NCBI GenBank assembly: GCA_903903635.1 | Contig: CAIUZK010000087.1 | Coordinates: forward strand, 1-42,542 | DNA from: an uncultured Bacteroidota bacterium | Lineage (GTDB): Bacteria > Bacteroidota > Bacteroidia > Chitinophagales > Chitinophagaceae | DNA: 42,542 nt | Direction of reading: 5' to 3' | Shown: one piece after another, positions 6,457-20,837 of the stretch | Numbering within the stretch: the stretch's first letter is position 1 | Layout of the letters: the number at the start of each line of letters is the position of its first letter | Notes under the pieces: model-generated | Databases searched by the model: none | Seen by the model: only the letters and a program-made list of their open reading frames with translations | Told to the model about the DNA's origin: nothing | Made by a program: the position numbers and the translations under genes

Positions 6457-6478
6457 TTCTGCTATTCCAAAATACTTT

Positions 6479-6510
6479 GCCCCGGACTGATTTGTTCCGG
6501 GGCTTTTTTT
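6479..6510 (+). terminator. Intrinsic terminator of hppA
   Basis: A perfect 8-bp GC-rich stem, GCCCCGGA (6479-6486) with TCCGGGGC (6496-6503), has a 9-base loop and is followed directly by seven T residues, 22 bases after the hppA stop. This is a textbook Rho-independent terminator. Confidence 0.85.
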
Positions 6511-6838
6511 ATGCAGTAAGGAAGGTTTTGTTGTCCCGGCTTAAGTGGTACTATATGGCTTCAGTGGCCATGGCACGCTTGTACATCATATCTTTATTGA
6601 GCATACAGTCAATAAAAATTATCAGGATATATGTAGAACGGACTCTCAACCTTTTCAAGGAGTGGTGGCGAAGCCGGGGTGGCGTTAAGCCAAGATAGGG
6701 GTGATCGAATCACAACCATCCGGAAACACTACTATGCCCCGTTAGTGGGCAACCGCTTTGTAGCAACACGTCCCCCGCCACACGCGCCCCGTAGGGTCGC
6801 AACAATTCGCTGATGGCAAATTATTCGAATGAGGAGGA
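6511..6838. repeat. Gene-free left border of the accessory island with palindromic repeats
   Basis: I see no gene here. At about 6640-6690 there is a CCTT-ttc-AAGG mini-hairpin followed by a G-rich stretch. Two copies of the palindrome-plus-tail repeat follow. The first is GCCCC-gttagt-GGGC with tail AACCGCTTTGTAGCAAC (6736-6767). The second is degenerate: GCGCCCCGTAGGGTCGCAAC (6784-6803). The helicase stop codon lies just to the right, so these elements sit at the 3' end of the leftward operon and may also act as transcript ends. Confidence 0.5.
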
Positions 6839-8968
6839 TTATTCACCTCCTGCAATCCTGACAGTATTTAAAAACTCTTCCGTCCCGGCAATATCAAAAT
6901 AAGTTTCAAGAATGTACGATTTTTTTAGATCAGCAGGCAAAAATTCCCCCCATTTACTGAAAGGAAATTGTTTAGGTGTTTCTTTGATCACCTTCTCTAC
7001 AAATTGCTCAATGTTTACAATCGCCTTATGCAAAGCATCAATTATACTATCCGCTCCTTTTAAAGGCGATGTAATTTCGATAAAACACTCCTTATCAAAC
7101 AGCTTATTACTTATCCCAACATTATTCAAAAGAAAACTGATTGTTTTATTGATCTGAGTTCCTGAAAAGGTATAAAACTCAATTGAATTTTCTTTGATGA
7201 TTAACGGTCTGTCTTTATTAAAATCTATTATTGGGAATGGCTGAAAAAATAATTGCATTTCATGAATAATTGCAGCGGCGCTTTCTTCATATTCAGTGCT
7301 GTTTTCAAAAGGGCTGTATATGATTTCAAGCATTTTTTTCCTGATACTTGAATGTACGTTTCCTCCTTCACCAAAAAACAGGGGCTTGTTGCCATCATGA
7401 GCGGGAACAACATATATTTTCTGAGCATCCACATCCACATCCATTATCTTCCAGATTCTTGCAGCCAGCAAAATATTTTCATCTTCCATCACCATTGGCG
7501 AAAAAGGTATATCCCCTATCGGCTTGCCGCTATGAATAACTTTAAAAGTTGGCAGTGTTTCAAAAACAGAATAAAACTCCTTAGAGTTAACAAGTTTCTC
7601 ACCCTCATACCCAACTATCAGTTCCCTTTTCAAATCTTCAACGTAATCCATACTGATCATATATTGGATTAGATTTTCTGCTTCTGCAGCCGATATGTTG
7701 GTAAATGCAGCGTTTTGTTTAATTCCGTTTACAAATAATTGCCTGCTACATCCCGAAGTCGCTTTTAGTATTGATAATATCTGGTGAAAGAGTATATCAA
7801 ACGGCTTTTTTTGAGAATAAATCGGCTCTATAAAATTTTCTTTATAGAGTTGCCAGCAGGCTATTGATTGTAACAATTGCCATTGTTCTGTTGCATAAAG
7901 TAATAGATTGCTTTTAATGTTTTCCTTCCTGCCGCTTCGCCCCACTCTTTGAATTAAAGATGCAACCGAATACGTAGAGTCTATTTGAACAACCATATCA
8001 ACTGAGCCAATATCAATACCTAATTCAAGAGTAGAAGTGCAGGCTATACAGAAATACTGGCGTTCATTGTTCTTAGCAAAATACTCAATATGTTCTCTCA
8101 ATTCTTTATCTACCGATGAGTGGTGGCTGAAATAAAAATGATGCCCGTTATTGCGCTCGGCGGTTTTCTTTAGCTTCACGGCAACCTCCTCGGCTTTCCC
8201 TCTGCTATTGGGGAAAATCAAAACTTTCTTGTCTTTCGTTTGTTCATACAAGTCATCAATTAGATCAACAGAGTAATTACCCAGTTCACTTTTCATATAC
8301 CTGAACTTGGCGTTCAAATCCTTTGGCGTTTTATCAACCAATACCTTTGTTCTTTCCTCCTCACCGGTAAATCTTTTAGCTTCATCATAGTCTCCAATAG
8401 TGGCCGACAACCCAATCGTTCTAACCTGATTCGAAACCAGTATTTTTATTCTTGACAACAACGATTTTAATTGAATTCCCCTGCTGCTGCCAATAAATGA
8501 GTGTATTTCATCAATTACAATGAATTTGAGATTAGGAAATAACGCTTTGATATAGTAAGGATGATTTACAAACATCGCTTCTATTGATTCAGGAGTTATA
8601 AGTAATATTCCAGTGGGTGATTTTACCAACTTATCTTTTAATGATTTGCTTGCTTCACCATGCCATTTTGTAACAGTAACATCCATATGCTTACATAAAC
8701 CTTCTACCCTTTGAAACTGGTCGTTTATCAAAGCGATAAGTGGAGAAACGTATAGTACTTGTATACCCCGTTCCCTGAAATCAACCTTAGTAAGAATTGG
8801 TAAAAATGCTGCTTCCGTTTTTCCGGATGCTGTTCTTGAAGCAAGAATATAATTATCGTCTGTTGAAAGTATCCTAGAAATTGCAGCAGCCTGTATGGGT
8901 CGCAAAGCATCCCATTGTTTGTCTCTTATATATCTGCGTACTGGCTCCGATAATAGTTCATATGACAT
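6839..8968 (-). CDS. brxHI-like: BrxHI/Lhr-like SF2 DNA helicase (third gene of the putative defence operon)
   Basis: This 709-residue superfamily 2 helicase has an Lhr-type core. The Q-type motif LRPIQ is at 22-26, Walker A TASGKT at 46-51, DEIH at 153-156, SAT at 188-190 and motif VI QRVGRSGR at 340-347. About 350 residues follow the core, shorter than in long Lhr proteins but similar to the BrxHI helicases of type 2 BREX. All catalytic motifs are intact, so ATP-driven unwinding or translocation on DNA is expected. It is the last gene of a leftward operon after the BrxD-like ATPase, separated by 137 bases that contain two palindromic repeats. The tail contains no recognisable nuclease motif. 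I am confident of the helicase family; assignment to BrxHI rather than generic Lhr rests on the adjacent BrxD-like gene. Confidence 0.82.
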   Translation of the reverse strand: MSYELLSEPVRRYIRDKQWDALRPIQAAAISRILSTDDNYILASRTASGKTEAAFLPILTKVDFRERGIQVLYVSPLIALINDQFQRVEGLCKHMDVTVTKWHGEASKSLKDKLVKSPTGILLITPESIEAMFVNHPYYIKALFPNLKFIVIDEIHSFIGSSRGIQLKSLLSRIKILVSNQVRTIGLSATIGDYDEAKRFTGEEERTKVLVDKTPKDLNAKFRYMKSELGNYSVDLIDDLYEQTKDKKVLIFPNSRGKAEEVAVKLKKTAERNNGHHFYFSHHSSVDKELREHIEYFAKNNERQYFCIACTSTLELGIDIGSVDMVVQIDSTYSVASLIQRVGRSGRKENIKSNLLLYATEQWQLLQSIACWQLYKENFIEPIYSQKKPFDILFHQILSILKATSGCSRQLFVNGIKQNAAFTNISAAEAENLIQYMISMDYVEDLKRELIVGYEGEKLVNSKEFYSVFETLPTFKVIHSGKPIGDIPFSPMVMEDENILLAARIWKIMDVDVDAQKIYVVPAHDGNKPLFFGEGGNVHSSIRKKMLEIIYSPFENSTEYEESAAAIIHEMQLFFQPFPIIDFNKDRPLIIKENSIEFYTFSGTQINKTISFLLNNVGISNKLFDKECFIEITSPLKGADSIIDALHKAIVNIEQFVEKVIKETPKQFPFSKWGEFLPADLKKSYILETYFDIAGTEEFLNTVRIAGGE

Positions 8969-9010
8969 GGGCTAAAGCTTAATTTTTTACCTGATAATTG
9001 TTGTACTAGC

Positions 9011-9080
9011 ATGCCCCAAAGGGGCTATCTGTTTGTAGTATAACATGAAAAAATTATCATTTGCCCCTTAAGGGCTATCC
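9011..9080. repeat. Two palindrome-plus-tail repeats between the ATPase and helicase genes
   Basis: The first is a perfect GCCCC-aaa-GGGGC palindrome (9013-9025) with tail TATCTGTTTGTAGTATAAC. The second is GCCCCTTAAGGGC (9063-9075) followed by TATCC. Both lie in the 137-base gap inside the putative operon, where they would form RNA hairpins. No T run follows in the direction of transcription that would make either a clear terminator, so read-through or altered mRNA stability is possible. Confidence 0.6.
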
Positions 9081-9105
9081 AATGATTAATAATATGGGTA
9101 CGTTC

Positions 9106-10416
9106 TTATAATTCCTCTACCATTTCAGGTAAATCTACTGGACGCTCATCTTTAATAACTATAGATTTCAGCATATCACTTTTATCAAGTGCAGGGTTTT
9201 GACGCATAATGCTGAGTATGTTCAGAAATTCTCTTATTATTTCACGAGGTGTCAGAAATTCACTCGCTCCTGGCTTGTTGAGGATTTCTTCCATAAAAAG
9301 CTGAATATCATTATCATCAACAGTCATTTCAACACCGTAATTGATGTTGAAAATCATCATTAATTTTTGCAGCAACACAAAAATTTCGGTATGGTTCAAT
9401 GGTTTCAGTTTGATCACTGGCTGAGCGAAATCACGAACTTCCAGTGTCTCAAATTTATTTAAAGCCAACCTTGATTTTAAAGCATCATAACTGAACAAAC
9501 CCTTACGCTCGTTTTCAAGAAATTCTTTCGTTCCGGCAAAATTGATAAAAAGGTTCGATATTTTCCCTTGGAAACAGTCATTATATATACTTAGTATCTT
9601 TTCATAGTTTTTCTCTCTTGCTGGACCTGTCGAAATTTTGTATAGGTTTATTGCCTCGTCCAAGTTCACCATAAATCCGCTGTAGCCCATGCTCACAAAT
9701 AGCTTGCAGAAATTCTTAAGCATGTTATAGTAGTTCAAATCATTTATTATTTCCCTTACGCCAAGATCTGCCCGTGCTTCGGTTTTTGTTTTGTATTCGC
9801 CTTTTAGCCACTTTAGCGCATTTTTACGCAATTGTTCATTGTCATTAATATACCCTGCATAATACTTCAACACCACAAATCCGAGATCAAATCCACCTAC
9901 GTCCGAAAGTTCATTTATTGCCTTCATGATGTTCTTTTCTATGAGCATGAAATATTTATCAGCCCTTATGTCCATCATCGAAATATTGTTTTCTTCTGCC
10001 GTTTTTGTAATCATCTGGTCAATCCACTTCTCAAGCAAAATGGGTAATGCGCCACCCTCTGGTTTGGTTTGAATAGCAATATTATCCATAATTGCCGCAT
10101 ACAGTGCAACGGCCTTTCCGTCATTTGAGTATAGCCTGTTTTCCGGCGTAAAGTCGGCATTGGCAACAACAAATTTCTGCTTCATGGCCACCGTATTAAG
10201 CAAGTGCAGCATAAACGATTTGCCCGAACCAAAATCCCCTATCCAGAACTTCACTAAGCTATGCCCGTTTTTGACATCTTCAAGCGATTTTAAAACGGCA
10301 TTTATTTCTGCCGAGCGTCCTACGGTTATATGCTGTACACCTATTTTTGGCACTACGCCTCCTAACAATGAATTGATAATTGATGTTGCTTCTTTGGGTT
10401 TGATTTGCTCTGCCAT
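9106..10416 (-). CDS. brxD-like: BrxD-like DUF2791 P-loop ATPase (second gene of the putative defence operon)
   Basis: This 436-residue AAA-type ATPase belongs to the DUF2791 (BrxC/BrxD) family of BREX-associated ATP-binding proteins. The N-terminus IINSLLGGVVPKIG (13-26) and ITVGRSAEI are typical of the family. Walker A GDFGSGKS is at 60-67 and Walker B ends in the LDE at 252-254, with DIRADKY at 149-155 between them. Both nucleotide-binding motifs are intact. In type 2 BREX, BrxD is encoded beside BrxHI, and the same order is seen here. The upstream gene ends 74 bases away and carries, at its own C-terminus, a second diverged copy of this very domain. The protein probably acts on DNA or assembles with its pseudo-ATPase paralogue; that is inference. 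Confidence 0.85.
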   Translation of the reverse strand: MAEQIKPKEATSIINSLLGGVVPKIGVQHITVGRSAEINAVLKSLEDVKNGHSLVKFWIGDFGSGKSFMLHLLNTVAMKQKFVVANADFTPENRLYSNDGKAVALYAAIMDNIAIQTKPEGGALPILLEKWIDQMITKTAEENNISMMDIRADKYFMLIEKNIMKAINELSDVGGFDLGFVVLKYYAGYINDNEQLRKNALKWLKGEYKTKTEARADLGVREIINDLNYYNMLKNFCKLFVSMGYSGFMVNLDEAINLYKISTGPAREKNYEKILSIYNDCFQGKISNLFINFAGTKEFLENERKGLFSYDALKSRLALNKFETLEVRDFAQPVIKLKPLNHTEIFVLLQKLMMIFNINYGVEMTVDDNDIQLFMEEILNKPGASEFLTPREIIREFLNILSIMRQNPALDKSDMLKSIVIKDERPVDLPEMVEEL

Positions 10417-10490
10417 GGTGCAATATTTTTAAAAGCTTTCTTTCTTTACCAAACAATTATTTCTTTAGCTTTCGGCTATGAATATAAATA

Positions 10491-13400
10491 TTAGCTAAAA
10501 ACATCTCTATTTTTTTCTAAGACAAGTAATTTTTCAACCAACTCTTTTACGTTTTCTATATCCCGACTTCCAGTTAAAGGAATTACTTTATGAAATGCCT
10601 CAACTTGAGAATTATTAAACAAAATAAAGAGATTTGATGTTATATCGTCAAAATTATCATTCTTAAAAGACATTAGTTTCTGGAAATTAGCTTCTCTTGT
10701 AAATACGGTAGATAATTTATACGAACTTGATGGTATTCGATACAAACTTACTCTATCTTCAAAGTTAATCATGAAACCACTATAATCAATGATTGCAAAT
10801 AATTTGCAATAGCATTTGAGAATCTTATTCTGATTAATTTCATCAATTATTTCACTGACTCCTAGATCTGTCCATGCTTGGCTATTAGAGGAGTATTCTC
10901 CTTGAAGCCATTTAAGTGATTTGTTAATCAATATTCCATTTTCATCCATGTAACCTTCAAAATATTTTAGCAAAACCAGTCCAAAATTGTTTACTAATTC
11001 ATTGGATATTTCATTAACTACCTTGACAATGTTGTTTTGAATAAAGGTTTGATACTTATCCGCTCGGATGTCTAATAATGAAATGCAATTTTCTTCCGCT
11101 GTTTTTGCAATTACTACTTCAAATAATTTTTCTAGTATAGTACATATTACATTGCGACTTTCGGTTGGGTTGAAAGATCTACGATGATCTGTTAGGGCAG
11201 AGTATAAACTTATAGCTTTCTCATCTAATGAAATTCTGTTTTCAGTTATGAAATCTGTCCTAGCTAAACGGTATAGCAATACTGATTTTTCAGTAGTGTG
11301 ATCGTAGATCAGGAAATTCATAAAACTTGTGTGACTTTTTCTATTATTGTGTGAGGGTAATTGTCCCTTTATTTCAGATAAATTAGAGTTAGTAATTGAG
11401 GTTAACTTTGTTGTATCAATAAAATCAATAGTAGATTTTTCTTGAGTATCTTCAGTTAATTTCGGTTCACAATAAAGGGTCTGAATTTCATATTTAAGAT
11501 TTGTTGTTGAACTAGATCTGATTACATCATCAATTCGCACGAAATTTTTTATTTTATTAAAATAGTCAGCTGCTATAGAATAATCATGTCCATCCTCTTC
11601 AATTAAAACATCATCAATGATTTCGTAACAGTTTTCATTTATACTATCAATTAATTGTCTTCTAAAAATATTTCGGCTTTTTGCATAACTCTCAATTTCT
11701 TGCCCCGACATCTTTAGTTCTTTTTCCTGGAAAATAAAAAGTAATGCTATTTGGTTTTCACTTAAAATTGGCAATAAATTATGAGTGGTATCCGTTGCTA
11801 TTGGTACTTCTATTTGAGTTACATTTATTGTCAGAGATGCTTCATTTGGTGAATCTTCCTCATCTGCAAGTAATTGCCCTAAAATGTCAACCGTTTCTGA
11901 ATGTTGTGCTTTTACTTCATCGATATGATCCAAGTCTATTAGTACCTTCTTTTTCCCTTTCACATACATTTTGCTAACCAAATCTATTGCACCAGCCAAG
12001 TCTTTGTTTAATTTTAAATCAGCCGCTATCTTTTGAAATTCTTCTGCATCATTTTTAGTAATAAACAAAGTGTTCTGAACTGCTTTAGGTAAAGCTTTAC
12101 CTTCTATTTTCGCCAAAACAGAGTTATAATAAATGTATTGTAGATATAGCTTCAATGCCTCCGATTTATCGTGCTTCGCAATTTCCTTCGCTGCCTCAAA
12201 AAATATATTTTCTATCGCAAGGTTTTTAATATTTTCCTCTCCTAACCTATATATTTTACTAACCGCATCCTCATGGCCGTTTGCTATGCTTAAAATTATT
12301 TGTTCTAACTCCTCTTTCCATCGCTGCGTATTTTGGGCGTTAAGCTCTATCAGTGTTTCTTTATCAGGCAATAATATAAACTGTTTTTGCTGCGCCAGAA
12401 TTTCATATACATATCTACCTAAAGCCGATTCAAATTGATTTTCAAATCCTCTGTTGTGAAAGTCTTCACTAAGTTTTCTTTTGTGCAGGTAGTTAGTCCG
12501 TACAACATTTTCTACCCTTTTAAAAATCGTGTAAAATACATCTGCTTCTATTCCTTCAGGGTAATATATTTGCGGAACATTTATCATTGCGGCTTTCAGC
12601 TTGCCTACTTCCTGTATAATTGTAGTATTGTTTTTCTTAAGTATTTTATTTAACTCTTTTAACGCAGTAAGATATAACCTTATGGTTGCTATACAACAAC
12701 CTTCAATAGACAAAAAAACATTATCAGGAATGTAAAATTTATTCAGCCATGATATCTCCTGTGGGTTCAGCCCCAGTTTCGTTTTATACTTTGTTCCTAA
12801 CTTATAGTTTTCTTCATAAGAACTTTCAAAAGTGGTATTAGTAATATCTTGTTTAGCGGATATTATAGACTGTTTCTTTTCCTCTAACCCTTCCCATGAT
12901 GTAATATTTAGCGATACATTGGGGTGAATTATTTTTTCTCCTTGACCTGTAATATCTATGATTGTGTTATCGGCGATTTGTTCCAGGTTGGGTATTGCTT
13001 GTATTTTATTTACACTAAGTTCACGAAGACAGACACGGTTGTTAACTCTGTCTAAATTAATATTAAGAAACTGATTTCTATTTGTCCTGAGTGCAACAAT
13101 ATATTGTTTTATTTTCTTTTCAGTCCCAGGATCATTGATCTCGATAAAACCATTAAATAAAACATTATCAATCGCTCTTGATACATCGATAGCGAATATT
13201 TCATAAAGTACTCGTAGGGTAATGTTGAAAATTAAGTTTTGATGCAATTCCTTTATTTCATTTTGCTTTCGTAATTTTTCACCAATTTCATCATTTGTTT
13301 TCTTATATACGTAGTCTTCGACAGTTGGTATTATATCGTCAGATGGCAACAGACATTCAACAATTAGCTCCTTGGAAGGTGAATTAAATTCCACTTCAAA

Positions 13401-14099
13401 AAAGTCCATACATCCTTCTGGTAAAACTAAATTTTCGAGACCCGCTTCCAAATAAGCGCATACACTTTCCTCAATACCTCGCTTATATCCTTTTATTACC
13501 TCATCAATTAGTTTGTTTTTATCATTGACAATGTTTCGTTCATCATTACATTTTAAAATAAATTTTTGCCTTTCCACCTCTATTTTTTTCGCTCGCTCAA
13601 TCATTAATATTTCATAAGCAGTAAATGCTTTTTTATATAATTGTTCACCATTTCGAATGTTTTCATCATGTGCTTTTCGTTTACCAGCAAATAATCTGAA
13701 AAATAGCGGTAATGGTTTAGGCATGTATTGTTGCAAAATTGGTTTTTCAGGCAATCCGCGTAATTCAGATGGAGTTACGAATTCAGGTTGGACGTATTTT
13801 TCTTTTAGTTTTTCTATATCGAAAGCGGCATATTTGTTTCGATTAATTAAAACGTTTTTTTGTTGATTAATTAAATCGCCCAATTCTGTATTTTCCTTTG
13901 CAACAGCATTAATTCGAGACTGTACATATGCTGCTTTCTGTTCTTTAGCAATTGTTTTTTGAGTTCTTTCACGTAGTTTTTGTTGCTGTAATGCAAAACG
14001 CTCCCTCCGCTTCTGATCAGCAATCATAGCGTTGTTCATCCTGTTTATTACTCTGGCTGTACTAACAACAGCACCAAGGAAACTACTTCTTCTTGCCAT
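10491..14099 (-). CDS. TerB-C multidomain protein with C-terminal BrxD-like pseudo-ATPase
   Basis: The 1202 residues divide into three parts. Residues 1-430 begin with a basic stretch and coiled coil (about 25-70), then a domain with CMDFFEVEFN, SKELIVECLLPS and RVLYEIFAI segments. I recall this arrangement from restriction system proteins, where it precedes an Mrr nuclease. Residues 435-850 resemble TerB-C: LGLNPQEISWLNKFY from 442, and a terminal RRQLIDSINENCYEIIDD block. Residues 920-1202 align collinearly with the neighbouring BrxD-like ATPase (KTAEEN, DIRADKY at 1010, SNLFI). There Walker A is destroyed (YDHTTEKS at 932-939, GDFGSGKS in the paralogue) and Walker B LDE has become FED (1113-1115), so it is a predicted pseudo-ATPase. 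I see no TerB-N or nuclease domain. It is first in the operon, and the start follows a TATATTTG box by 16 bases. Domain calls come from memory of the families. Confidence 0.75.
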   Translation of the reverse strand: MARRSSFLGAVVSTARVINRMNNAMIADQKRRERFALQQQKLRERTQKTIAKEQKAAYVQSRINAVAKENTELGDLINQQKNVLINRNKYAAFDIEKLKEKYVQPEFVTPSELRGLPEKPILQQYMPKPLPLFFRLFAGKRKAHDENIRNGEQLYKKAFTAYEILMIERAKKIEVERQKFILKCNDERNIVNDKNKLIDEVIKGYKRGIEESVCAYLEAGLENLVLPEGCMDFFEVEFNSPSKELIVECLLPSDDIIPTVEDYVYKKTNDEIGEKLRKQNEIKELHQNLIFNITLRVLYEIFAIDVSRAIDNVLFNGFIEINDPGTEKKIKQYIVALRTNRNQFLNINLDRVNNRVCLRELSVNKIQAIPNLEQIADNTIIDITGQGEKIIHPNVSLNITSWEGLEEKKQSIISAKQDITNTTFESSYEENYKLGTKYKTKLGLNPQEISWLNKFYIPDNVFLSIEGCCIATIRLYLTALKELNKILKKNNTTIIQEVGKLKAAMINVPQIYYPEGIEADVFYTIFKRVENVVRTNYLHKRKLSEDFHNRGFENQFESALGRYVYEILAQQKQFILLPDKETLIELNAQNTQRWKEELEQIILSIANGHEDAVSKIYRLGEENIKNLAIENIFFEAAKEIAKHDKSEALKLYLQYIYYNSVLAKIEGKALPKAVQNTLFITKNDAEEFQKIAADLKLNKDLAGAIDLVSKMYVKGKKKVLIDLDHIDEVKAQHSETVDILGQLLADEEDSPNEASLTINVTQIEVPIATDTTHNLLPILSENQIALLFIFQEKELKMSGQEIESYAKSRNIFRRQLIDSINENCYEIIDDVLIEEDGHDYSIAADYFNKIKNFVRIDDVIRSSSTTNLKYEIQTLYCEPKLTEDTQEKSTIDFIDTTKLTSITNSNLSEIKGQLPSHNNRKSHTSFMNFLIYDHTTEKSVLLYRLARTDFITENRISLDEKAISLYSALTDHRRSFNPTESRNVICTILEKLFEVVIAKTAEENCISLLDIRADKYQTFIQNNIVKVVNEISNELVNNFGLVLLKYFEGYMDENGILINKSLKWLQGEYSSNSQAWTDLGVSEIIDEINQNKILKCYCKLFAIIDYSGFMINFEDRVSLYRIPSSSYKLSTVFTREANFQKLMSFKNDNFDDITSNLFILFNNSQVEAFHKVIPLTGSRDIENVKELVEKLLVLEKNRDVFS

Positions 14100-14123: not shown

Positions 14124-14933
14124 TAAACTGATAACAATGATTTATAATTCTTGGATAGAATTCCATTGATTAGCAAAACAATGCAGTGTTGCTTTAAACC
14201 CAGAATATTCCATTTATTAGCACTTGCGACACGAGTGCTTTCTCGTTCCCTAATGAAAAGGGAATGTACCGCCAGTGCGTTTGTAAAGCACTTATTTTTT
14301 CCTATTAACTCCGCCTTAGTCTGGCGCAGGTCTGTAGCATAGCCCCGTGCAAAGCAGCTGTGTCTGAACAATTTAGCCAGTTTTAAACTGGCGTTTCCAA
14401 CCCAATAAATAAATATGCTAAATAATTAGGAAATTCCAATTATTAATTCTACCTTTGGCGTAAATTTAACCCAAAACATCGACACACCTAACTATGTATA
14501 AATCTAAATTCCAATTTATTTGCCAAGAATTAGCTTTCGGATTGCCAAAACATAATTCCGAAAATCCTTCTTCGTGCGCCATAGCTTTTTCAGTGAAGGA
14601 GCATTAATCCTGCGAATTCTGATCAAAAAAATATAACACACTAAAAATCAACAAGTTGCAATTTTAAAAACTTCCGTTTTCCGGAAACTTCCGGAAGCAA
14701 ACCAGAAGTTTTTCACCCAAAACCAGAAGTAAAACCAGAAGTTTTATGAAGCAAAACCAGAAGTTTCATGATGCAAACCGGAAGTTTTCTAATGCCAAAA
14801 ACCTCAATTATACGGCTCGGGATAAAAACTGACATTTAAAAAATGTATAAAAAGTACGCATCGCGAAGAATATCTCCTATTGATTGTCAAAAGACAAATT
14901 ATGCTCTGACATAGAATTATTTCAGGAGAACCC
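14124..14933. repeat. Gene-free right border of the accessory island, rich in hairpins and short repeats
   Basis: No gene is supported in these 810 bases. The left part holds a chain of short hairpins: GCACT/AGTGC near 14220-14240, TTCCCT/AGGGAA near 14247-14265, and a 17-base palindrome GCCAGTTT-t-AAACTGGC (14376-14392). The stretch looks like a relic of an intergenic repeat rather than protein-coding sequence. From 14400 to 14660 nothing is recognised. From 14669 to 14788 there are repeated AAACCRGAAGTTT motifs (separate entry). From 14789 to the desaturase stop nothing further is seen. Confidence 0.5.
14669..14788. repeat. Cluster of AAACCRGAAGTTT direct repeats
   Basis: Five direct copies of AAACC(A/G)GAAGTTT begin at 14699, 14719, 14731, 14753 and 14775, with some ends trimmed. 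Just before them, at 14669-14697, the same motif appears inverted (AAACTTCCG and TCCGGAAACTTCCGGAAG). Spacing is irregular (10 to 22 bases). The cluster lies downstream of the leftward desaturase gene. Its origin is unknown: slippage, protein-binding sites and repeat-element debris are all possible. Confidence 0.65.
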
Positions 14934-20245: not shown

Positions 20246-20716
20246 TCATTTAACAAGTACTAATTGAACATTCCCAACTTTCATACCAAAATCAAAAGTA
20301 AAATTGGTTTTCAAATGAAAATCTGCATCAATTTTATTTATTATTTCATTTTGTCCTTTTGGTAGATTTAAAAGTATAATTAGGTGTTTCCTGTTTAACT
20401 CTTTATCTTTTTTTAGTTTGGTATCGAGTATTCCATATACTTCAAAACCATTAAAATTTTTCGCTTTTTTAATTGCTGTTTCAATTAATAATGCATCACC
20501 AATTTTACCAGTAATTGTATTATCCTTTTTAATTTCAATTTCAAATGATACTAAGCCAAAATGTTGCAAATTCTTATCAAGAAACTTACCATTACCAACC
20601 CATTTTCCTATCAAATACTGGTTAGATGAAATTAAATCATTGTTTTGCTGACTTGAACAAGAAATTGTTGATATAATAATTAAAGACATAAATGGGAATA
20701 AAATGAAATTTTTCAT
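20246..20716 (-). CDS. Small predicted lipoprotein of unknown function
   Basis: This lipoprotein of about 156 residues has a signal peptide with hydrophobic core ILFPFMSLIIIS and a lipobox ending at the cysteine of TISCSS, so it should be lipid-anchored. The mature part is short and strand-rich (LIGKWVGNGKFLD, VSFEIEIKKD, FGMKVGNVQLVLVK), resembling small calycin- or lipocalin-like Bacteroidota lipoproteins, but I do not recognise a family. I start at the ATG at 20716; an in-frame ATG at 20737 adds seven residues. It is AT-rich compared with the flanking DUF2851 sequences and lies between an inverted-repeat pair, suggesting acquisition as a cassette. Confidence 0.6.
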   Translation of the reverse strand: MKNFILFPFMSLIIISTISCSSQQNNDLISSNQYLIGKWVGNGKFLDKNLQHFGLVSFEIEIKKDNTITGKIGDALLIETAIKKAKNFNGFEVYGILDTKLKKDKELNRKHLIILLNLPKGQNEIINKIDADFHLKTNFTFDFGMKVGNVQLVLVK

Positions 20717-20837
20717 ATTTATATGTTTTATATTCATAAATATAGTTTGTTTTGGAAAACTAAGTTATGATTAAAGTCATCACAACATAAGTCTTGATAT
20801 TATATAATTGAAGCAAGGCTGTTTTATTAGACATACC

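Follow-up and report, generated by a model that had tools for sequence, protein, structure and literature searches.

Shango is a three-gene anti-phage system (SngA-SngB-SngC), and protection against phage has been demonstrated for the operon of Pseudomonas aeruginosa PA14, in a paper that also cites earlier work in Escherichia coli (PMC10250203). Its helicase SngC forms one potentially distinct clade with BrxHI, DruE and DpdJ according to the Hachiman paper (PMC12278908), and a 2026 review files the system under unknown mechanism (PMC12926258). For the related BrxD and BrxHI of the bacteriophage exclusion (BREX) systems, a role of BrxD as loader of BrxHI has been proposed (PMC12839542). The window analyzed here has 42,542 nucleotides (nt) and comprises the entire contig CAIUZK010000087.1 (C87) of assembly GCA_903903635.1, from an uncultured member of the Chitinophagaceae (Bacteroidota). 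It harbors an operon of three leftward genes, in which a sequence-only reading had seen a candidate BREX-independent system composed of a TerB-C multidomain protein, a BrxD-like ATPase and a BrxHI-like helicase.

The three open reading frames (ORFs) lie exactly where that reading had placed them, and all are open (Table 1). Pfam recovered the expected domains, namely TerB_C (PF15615, 3.8e-19) in the first protein, BrxC_BrxD (PF10923, 1e-140) in the second and DEAD/Helicase_C domains in the third. The motifs reported for the latter two were also present: the 436-residue protein contains GDFGSGKS and NLDEA, which we take to be an intact Walker A and a Walker B-like motif, and the 709-residue protein contains GKT, DEIH, SAT and C-terminal motifs that we take to be those of superfamily 2 (SF2) helicases. 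The names BrxD and BrxHI were correct with regard to homology, but the best PADLOC match of both proteins is Shango (SngB 2.2e-162 versus BrxD 3.2e-40; SngC 3e-209 versus BrxHI 1.7e-130). As the PADLOC Shango models match all three proteins, the proposed novelty was not upheld: judged by these matches, the trio is Shango, an already published anti-phage system, and no undescribed system is present. The first protein is not the plain TerB-C protein that had been described, but a chimera with fusions at its front and its tail, both of which had been overlooked. The system is ordinary by kind and the variant unusual by architecture, the new part being the chimeric SngA of 1202 residues. We consider it a Shango system with a rebuilt recruiting subunit, in which a restriction-enzyme arm would replace the usual anchor and a dead SngB copy would couple SngA to the SngB assembly. 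This reading is given a probability of roughly 0.4; the domain content, the lost and kept motifs and the traces of selection in the coding sequences are observed, and the function is inferred.

The front of SngA corresponds to the N-terminal part of Mrr-class type IV restriction enzymes. The PADLOC profile mREase_IV matched residues 20-365 (profile positions 31-370 of 544, 2.1e-22). Pfam detected no Mrr_cat nuclease domain in the window SngA, and located this domain at the C-terminal end of all ten front-half relatives that were scanned. When the front half (391 amino acids) was searched in 396 genomes of the order and 395 of the phylum, 5 and 11 of them, respectively, contained a match, with the own genome counted in both. 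By eye, the loci L007/L095, L008 and L096 resemble the relatives ending in Mrr_cat, the nuclease part of L096 being degenerate. An exception is L106/L107 (genome G807), where the restriction-enzyme front half is split over two frames and adjoined by a transposase-like ORF. Among 16 front-half loci on viral contigs, an Mrr-like end was visible in 15. The remaining one, L123 (2659-4017 of an IMG/VR contig), contains, after a cysteine-rich stretch, a domain resembling the front half of the window SngA and shows no visible Mrr nuclease part. The own genome holds one further piece, whose match to the mREase_IV profile is confined to the nuclease part. An AlphaFold model of residues 1-391 (15 sequences; mean predicted local distance difference test score, pLDDT, 83.8) comprises a helix at residues 7-81, a second long helix at 138-207 and an alpha/beta part at about 210-362, where the front-half alignment has its invariant residues.

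The conserved core of SngA follows. The PADLOC SngA profile matched residues 432-852 (profile positions 190-525 of 528, 1.4e-26), and profile positions 1-189 remained unmatched. A model of residues 386-860 (61 sequences, mean pLDDT 83.0) is helical with a winged-helix-like end, and no fold of the PDB matched it at E<=0.001 (best E 2.4; winged-helix matches at E >1). Related loci numbered 80 (L012-L091), 77 from a scan of genome contigs with two peptide patterns based on the SngA alignment, in which distant cases may be missed, and three from plasmids; any near-identical loci were retained. They yielded 79 SngA frames, and 77 after two frames with a truncated core were dropped. An IIDVTG-like motif precedes the core in 69 of these 77 relatives, compared to 2.8 expected in shuffled stretches, and the window SngA reads IIDITG at residue 380. 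MAFFT did not align these stretches in the first alignment and they were matched by the motif, on which the swap point therefore rests. Where the window has the restriction-enzyme half, 57 of the 77 relatives possess a hydrophobic, membrane-helix-like stretch before the core (19 residues with a mean hydropathy >1.6, scored from the first methionine of the frame, so that signal peptides may count). According to Pfam, four of ten unusual fronts carry SH3_3 and four TM2, with three proteins having both; one has zinc ribbons, one a DUF4428 match below the cut-off, and the other three have no such domain. The SngA front is variable and usually hydrophobic in these mostly Bacteroidota relatives; given the hydrophobic stretch in most and SH3, TM2 or zinc-ribbon fronts in others, it looks like a swappable module. 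Neither the fusion nor the variable front appears in the Shango literature searched, which consisted of open-licence papers in partial text. SH3-fronted SngA proteins occur at L012, L016, L018 and L057 (Pfam) and at L017, L032 and L034 (by pattern), most of them with a hydrophobic stretch, as if envelope-sensing. Zinc-ribbon-fronted SngA was seen in two assemblies of Acidobacteria (L052 at 7338-9329 by Pfam, L053 by eye).

The tail of SngA is a degenerate copy of SngB. Residues 896-1202 align with the SngB of the same operon over 299 residues at 39% identity, and the PADLOC SngB profile matched residues 924-1162 (4.2e-28). Both Walker motifs are ruined, GDFGSGKS being changed to YDHTTEKS and NLDEA to NFEDR. 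Such a copy is absent from the 79 related SngA frames, which end 0-6 residues past the aligned core. The nearest core is that of L015, a metagenome-assembled locus (clade support 1.0 in FastTree; 65% of 421 core residues shared). In a FastTree phylogeny with midpoint rooting, the tail attaches beside the SngB proteins of the window and L015 (supports weak, 0.72 and 0.43) on a very long branch of 1.7, compared to 0.04 for sngB. Of 24 states that set these two SngB proteins apart, the tail has 8, compared to 1 of 13 found in the window alone and 2 of 20 found in L015 alone, which suggests that sngB was duplicated around the time when the two lineages diverged. The tail has no stop in 299 codons, whereas 2000 simulated neutral decays to the same identity contained 14.8 stops on average and at least 5, none being stop-free. 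Conservative changes make up 64 of 181 (0.354), compared to 0.257 +/- 0.034 in the simulations (largest value 0.39), and the differences from sngB by codon position are 0.43, 0.30 and 0.66 versus simulated values of 0.33, 0.32 and 0.33. That the tail has been a neutral relic all along is ruled out by this simulation. Based on the absence of stops, the conservative changes, the lost motifs and the little extra identity at family-invariant positions, the tail seems to have been retained as a protein after its role as an ATPase was lost.

The chimera is rare. Apart from the own genome, no other copy was found in 195 genomes of the family searched with the whole protein or seen in the order and phylum genomes searched with the front half, nor was one present among the best 40 of 80 plasmid records. 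No phage match to the chimera was obtained, and no SngA relatives were found in viral contigs. L015 holds a front piece that matches residues 265-353 of the window SngA with 46% identity and is constrained in this comparison (proportions of nonsynonymous and synonymous differences, pN and pS, 0.39 and 0.74). Upstream of this piece, stops close the frame beside a 22-nt motif. The L015 genome has this motif at three places, each time as a tandem pair, and one of the places is the end of L015's contig. We read the break as an inserted repeat, probably an insertion sequence. No further front pieces were found in the L015 genome, and the tail copy is absent from L015. As far as the aligned pieces tell, the front fusion is common to two lineages and intact in one only.

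The operon as such is conserved as a unit, in agreement with its earlier description as a three-protein defense operon. The genes occur in the order A-B-C on one strand with gaps <200 nt in 74 of the 80 related loci. Among the six exceptions, C is missing from three and A from one, another consists of A only, and in the last a gap of 2 kb precedes C; the five loci without a gene all stop at the end of the record or contig on that side. Gene gaps in the relatives, derived by aligning their frames to the first residue of each window protein, are -17 to +14 nt between sngA and sngB (78 relatives) and <=6 nt between sngB and sngC in 74 of 75, compared to 74 and 137 nt in the window. Such open spacers are consistent with sngB having been duplicated in tandem and rearranged, as far as gene layout can tell. 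The spacers would also suit a decaying operon, whose SngA would be the wreck of a chimera bearing a relic of SngB, and so would the very long branch of the tail and the sister front in L015 that is broken at a repeated element. We regard such decay as unlikely, because the three frames are open, no simulated relic stayed free of stops, SngB is 87% identical to its L015 counterpart with pN 0.059 and pS 0.81 over shared columns, and the SngA core is likewise constrained relative to L015 (pN 0.21, pS 0.66).

In a working Shango system with a rebuilt SngA, SngB would load or activate SngC on invading DNA, by analogy with the proposal for BrxD and BrxHI (PMC12839542). SngA would be the target finder and determine, through its front, where this happens. 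Most relatives seem to have their SngA tied to the membrane via an N-terminal hydrophobic helix, which would place the action of the system at the point of phage DNA entry. In the window, the restriction-enzyme arm may instead recruit the SngB-SngC machine to a recognized DNA feature, perhaps modified DNA. Pfam matched no nuclease domain in the three proteins, save a ResIII match that overlaps the helicase and a match to a Cas3-like helicase C-terminal domain, and the output would thus be helicase action on phage DNA in place of a nuclease, possibly together with host nucleases. The dead SngB copy may join the SngB assembly as a subunit without catalytic activity and so provide a physical coupling of SngA to it. 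A broader generalization is rather speculative: Shango could be a platform with an exchangeable target-finding SngA front, which is mostly an anchor, in some cases an SH3 or zinc-ribbon domain and here a type IV half that yields a modification-guided helicase, with the dead loader copy as docking subunit. The natural fusion of SngA with a restriction-enzyme front and a dead SngB suggests concrete roles for SngA, as target finder and as the contact for SngB.

Several observations weigh against the recruiting arm and its coupling. The front has no match in Pfam, and Foldseek returned no fold of the PDB at E<=0.001; the top match, to a Listeria pheromone precursor, had an E of 0.008 and a TM score of 0.15. 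Recognition of DNA or modified bases therefore rests only on the place of the front in type IV enzymes. Comparison with viral models likewise gave nothing at E<=0.001 (best E 0.0026 with a probability of 0.99, an uncharacterized siphovirus protein), and sequence searches against solved structures nothing convincing. Family-invariant positions of SngB are retained in the tail at a rate (65 of 166) barely above that of other positions (30 of 66, 17 of 49 and 6 of 18). The simulation starts from the present-day sngB and assumes decay throughout, and a long functional phase of the tail followed by recent loosening is compatible with its results. The intact chimera is a single case, the front of L015 being interrupted. 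Furthermore, 20 of the 77 relatives, L015 among them, lack the hydrophobic stretch, and the anchor is therefore not essential to the family. If these relatives work, they do so anchor-free, which would also suit an ordinary Shango system with the usual target choice, in which the front serves only for coiled-coil dimerization or as a scaffold and the tail is an extension that the protein tolerates. The predicted front, which consists largely of the two long helices, is consistent with this, but it also includes the alpha/beta part that holds the invariant residues. We consider this alternative possible, though doubtful.

In favor of a BREX origin, SngB and SngC have homologues in BrxD and BrxHI, and contig C192 of the same genome bears BREX-type genes. 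That the trio represents leftovers of a type 2 BREX system is nevertheless extremely improbable, as the SngB and SngC models outscore the BREX models by far. In addition, 18 of 19 Shango-bearing genomes searched for PglZ contain a single PglZ-domain protein of 515-535 amino acids and none of BREX length; the remaining genome has an 834-amino-acid protein besides. We take the proteins of 515-535 amino acids to be of the common PorX type. These results support the earlier claim of independence from BREX, and the candidate of a BREX leftover was ruled out by the model scores and the PglZ searches. Only two PglZ-domain proteins are present in the own genome, a frame of 526 amino acids on C246 and one of 614 on C192 (PADLOC PglZ 5.9e-67), the latter beside a BrxA match (1.3e-8) and with no BrxD-family match there. 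Near the end of C192 (L149, 5691-12657), ORFs of 933 and 541 amino acids appear helicase-like and methylase-like by eye; this may be a type 3 BREX locus. According to these matches, BREX-type genes are present in the genome, but off the contig of the operon. The reported lack of BREX core genes in the window held insofar as the PglZ and BrxC/D models match nothing outside the operon, to which the PF10923 matches are confined; PglX and PglW were absent from the 15 window proteins scanned with Pfam, their own models not being used for a search.

Table 1. Positions of the operon genes, the parts of SngA and the gene spacers in the window (aa, amino acids).
Feature	Position	Strand	Basis
sngA, 1202 aa, three-part chimera	10491..14099	-	ORF; PADLOC SngA, mREase_IV and SngB matches
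SngA aa 1-379, N-terminal half of Mrr-class type IV restriction enzyme, nuclease not included	12963..14099	-	PADLOC, homologues, AlphaFold model
SngA aa 380-853, conserved core from IIDITG motif to end of TerB_C	11541..12962	-	PF15615 at aa 713-850; alignments; model
SngA aa 896-1202, degenerate copy of SngB/BrxD-type ATPase	10494..11414	-	PADLOC SngB, Pfam, alignment
sngB, 436 aa, BrxD-family ATPase, Walker A and B present	9106..10416	-	PADLOC SngB 2.2e-162; PF10923 1e-140
sngC, 709 aa, SF2 helicase	6839..8968	-	PADLOC SngC 3e-209; PF00270, PF00271
sngA-sngB spacer, 74 nt	10417..10490	.	ORF ends
sngB-sngC spacer, 137 nt	8969..9105	.	ORF ends

A match of SngC to the Lhr winged-helix family PF19306 was below threshold (19.4 bits versus a cut-off of 27). 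The operon had been described as an AT-rich island flanked by repeats. Its guanine-cytosine content of about 0.31-0.37 over 7-14 kb is indeed below that of most of the window, but a second stretch at 20-22 kb is equally low (0.30-0.34); it contains short ORFs, among them one at 20246-20737 without a Pfam match. Short repeats were found on one side only (14665-14800), and none at 6457-6840, so that the flanking repeats are weakly supported. They include a tandem array at 14699-14800 upstream of sngA with the unit AAAACCAGAAGT.. and a period of 22 or 34. No tRNA and no Rfam matches were found in the window. As to the insertion site, a desaturase match was present in 21 of 21 members of the genus, yet no other tested window gene stood beside the desaturase in ten regions, four of which reach contig ends.

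Compared to described systems, the operon shares with type 2 BREX the homologous ATPase and helicase pair of BrxD and BrxHI, but differs in having no PglZ nearby and no BrxC/PglY beside the pair, and in fitting the Shango models much better. A catalytically dead P-loop ATPase within a defense protein is also known from the degenerate ATPase domains of BREX (iSTAND of BrxB and PglW; PMC12839542), whereas the dead copy in the window derives from SngB, a partner encoded in the same operon. With type IV Mrr-class restriction enzymes (PADLOC mREase_IV, PDLC03663), SngA has the N-terminal region of the profile in common, and the SngA core stands in place of the Mrr_cat nuclease domain. With Shango, the operon shares all three proteins, the gene order, TerB_C, the BrxD-like ATPase and the BrxHI-like helicase; it differs in its SngA, which carries a restriction-enzyme front where others have a hydrophobic helix or another front, as well as a dead SngB copy at the tail, and in its open gene spacers.

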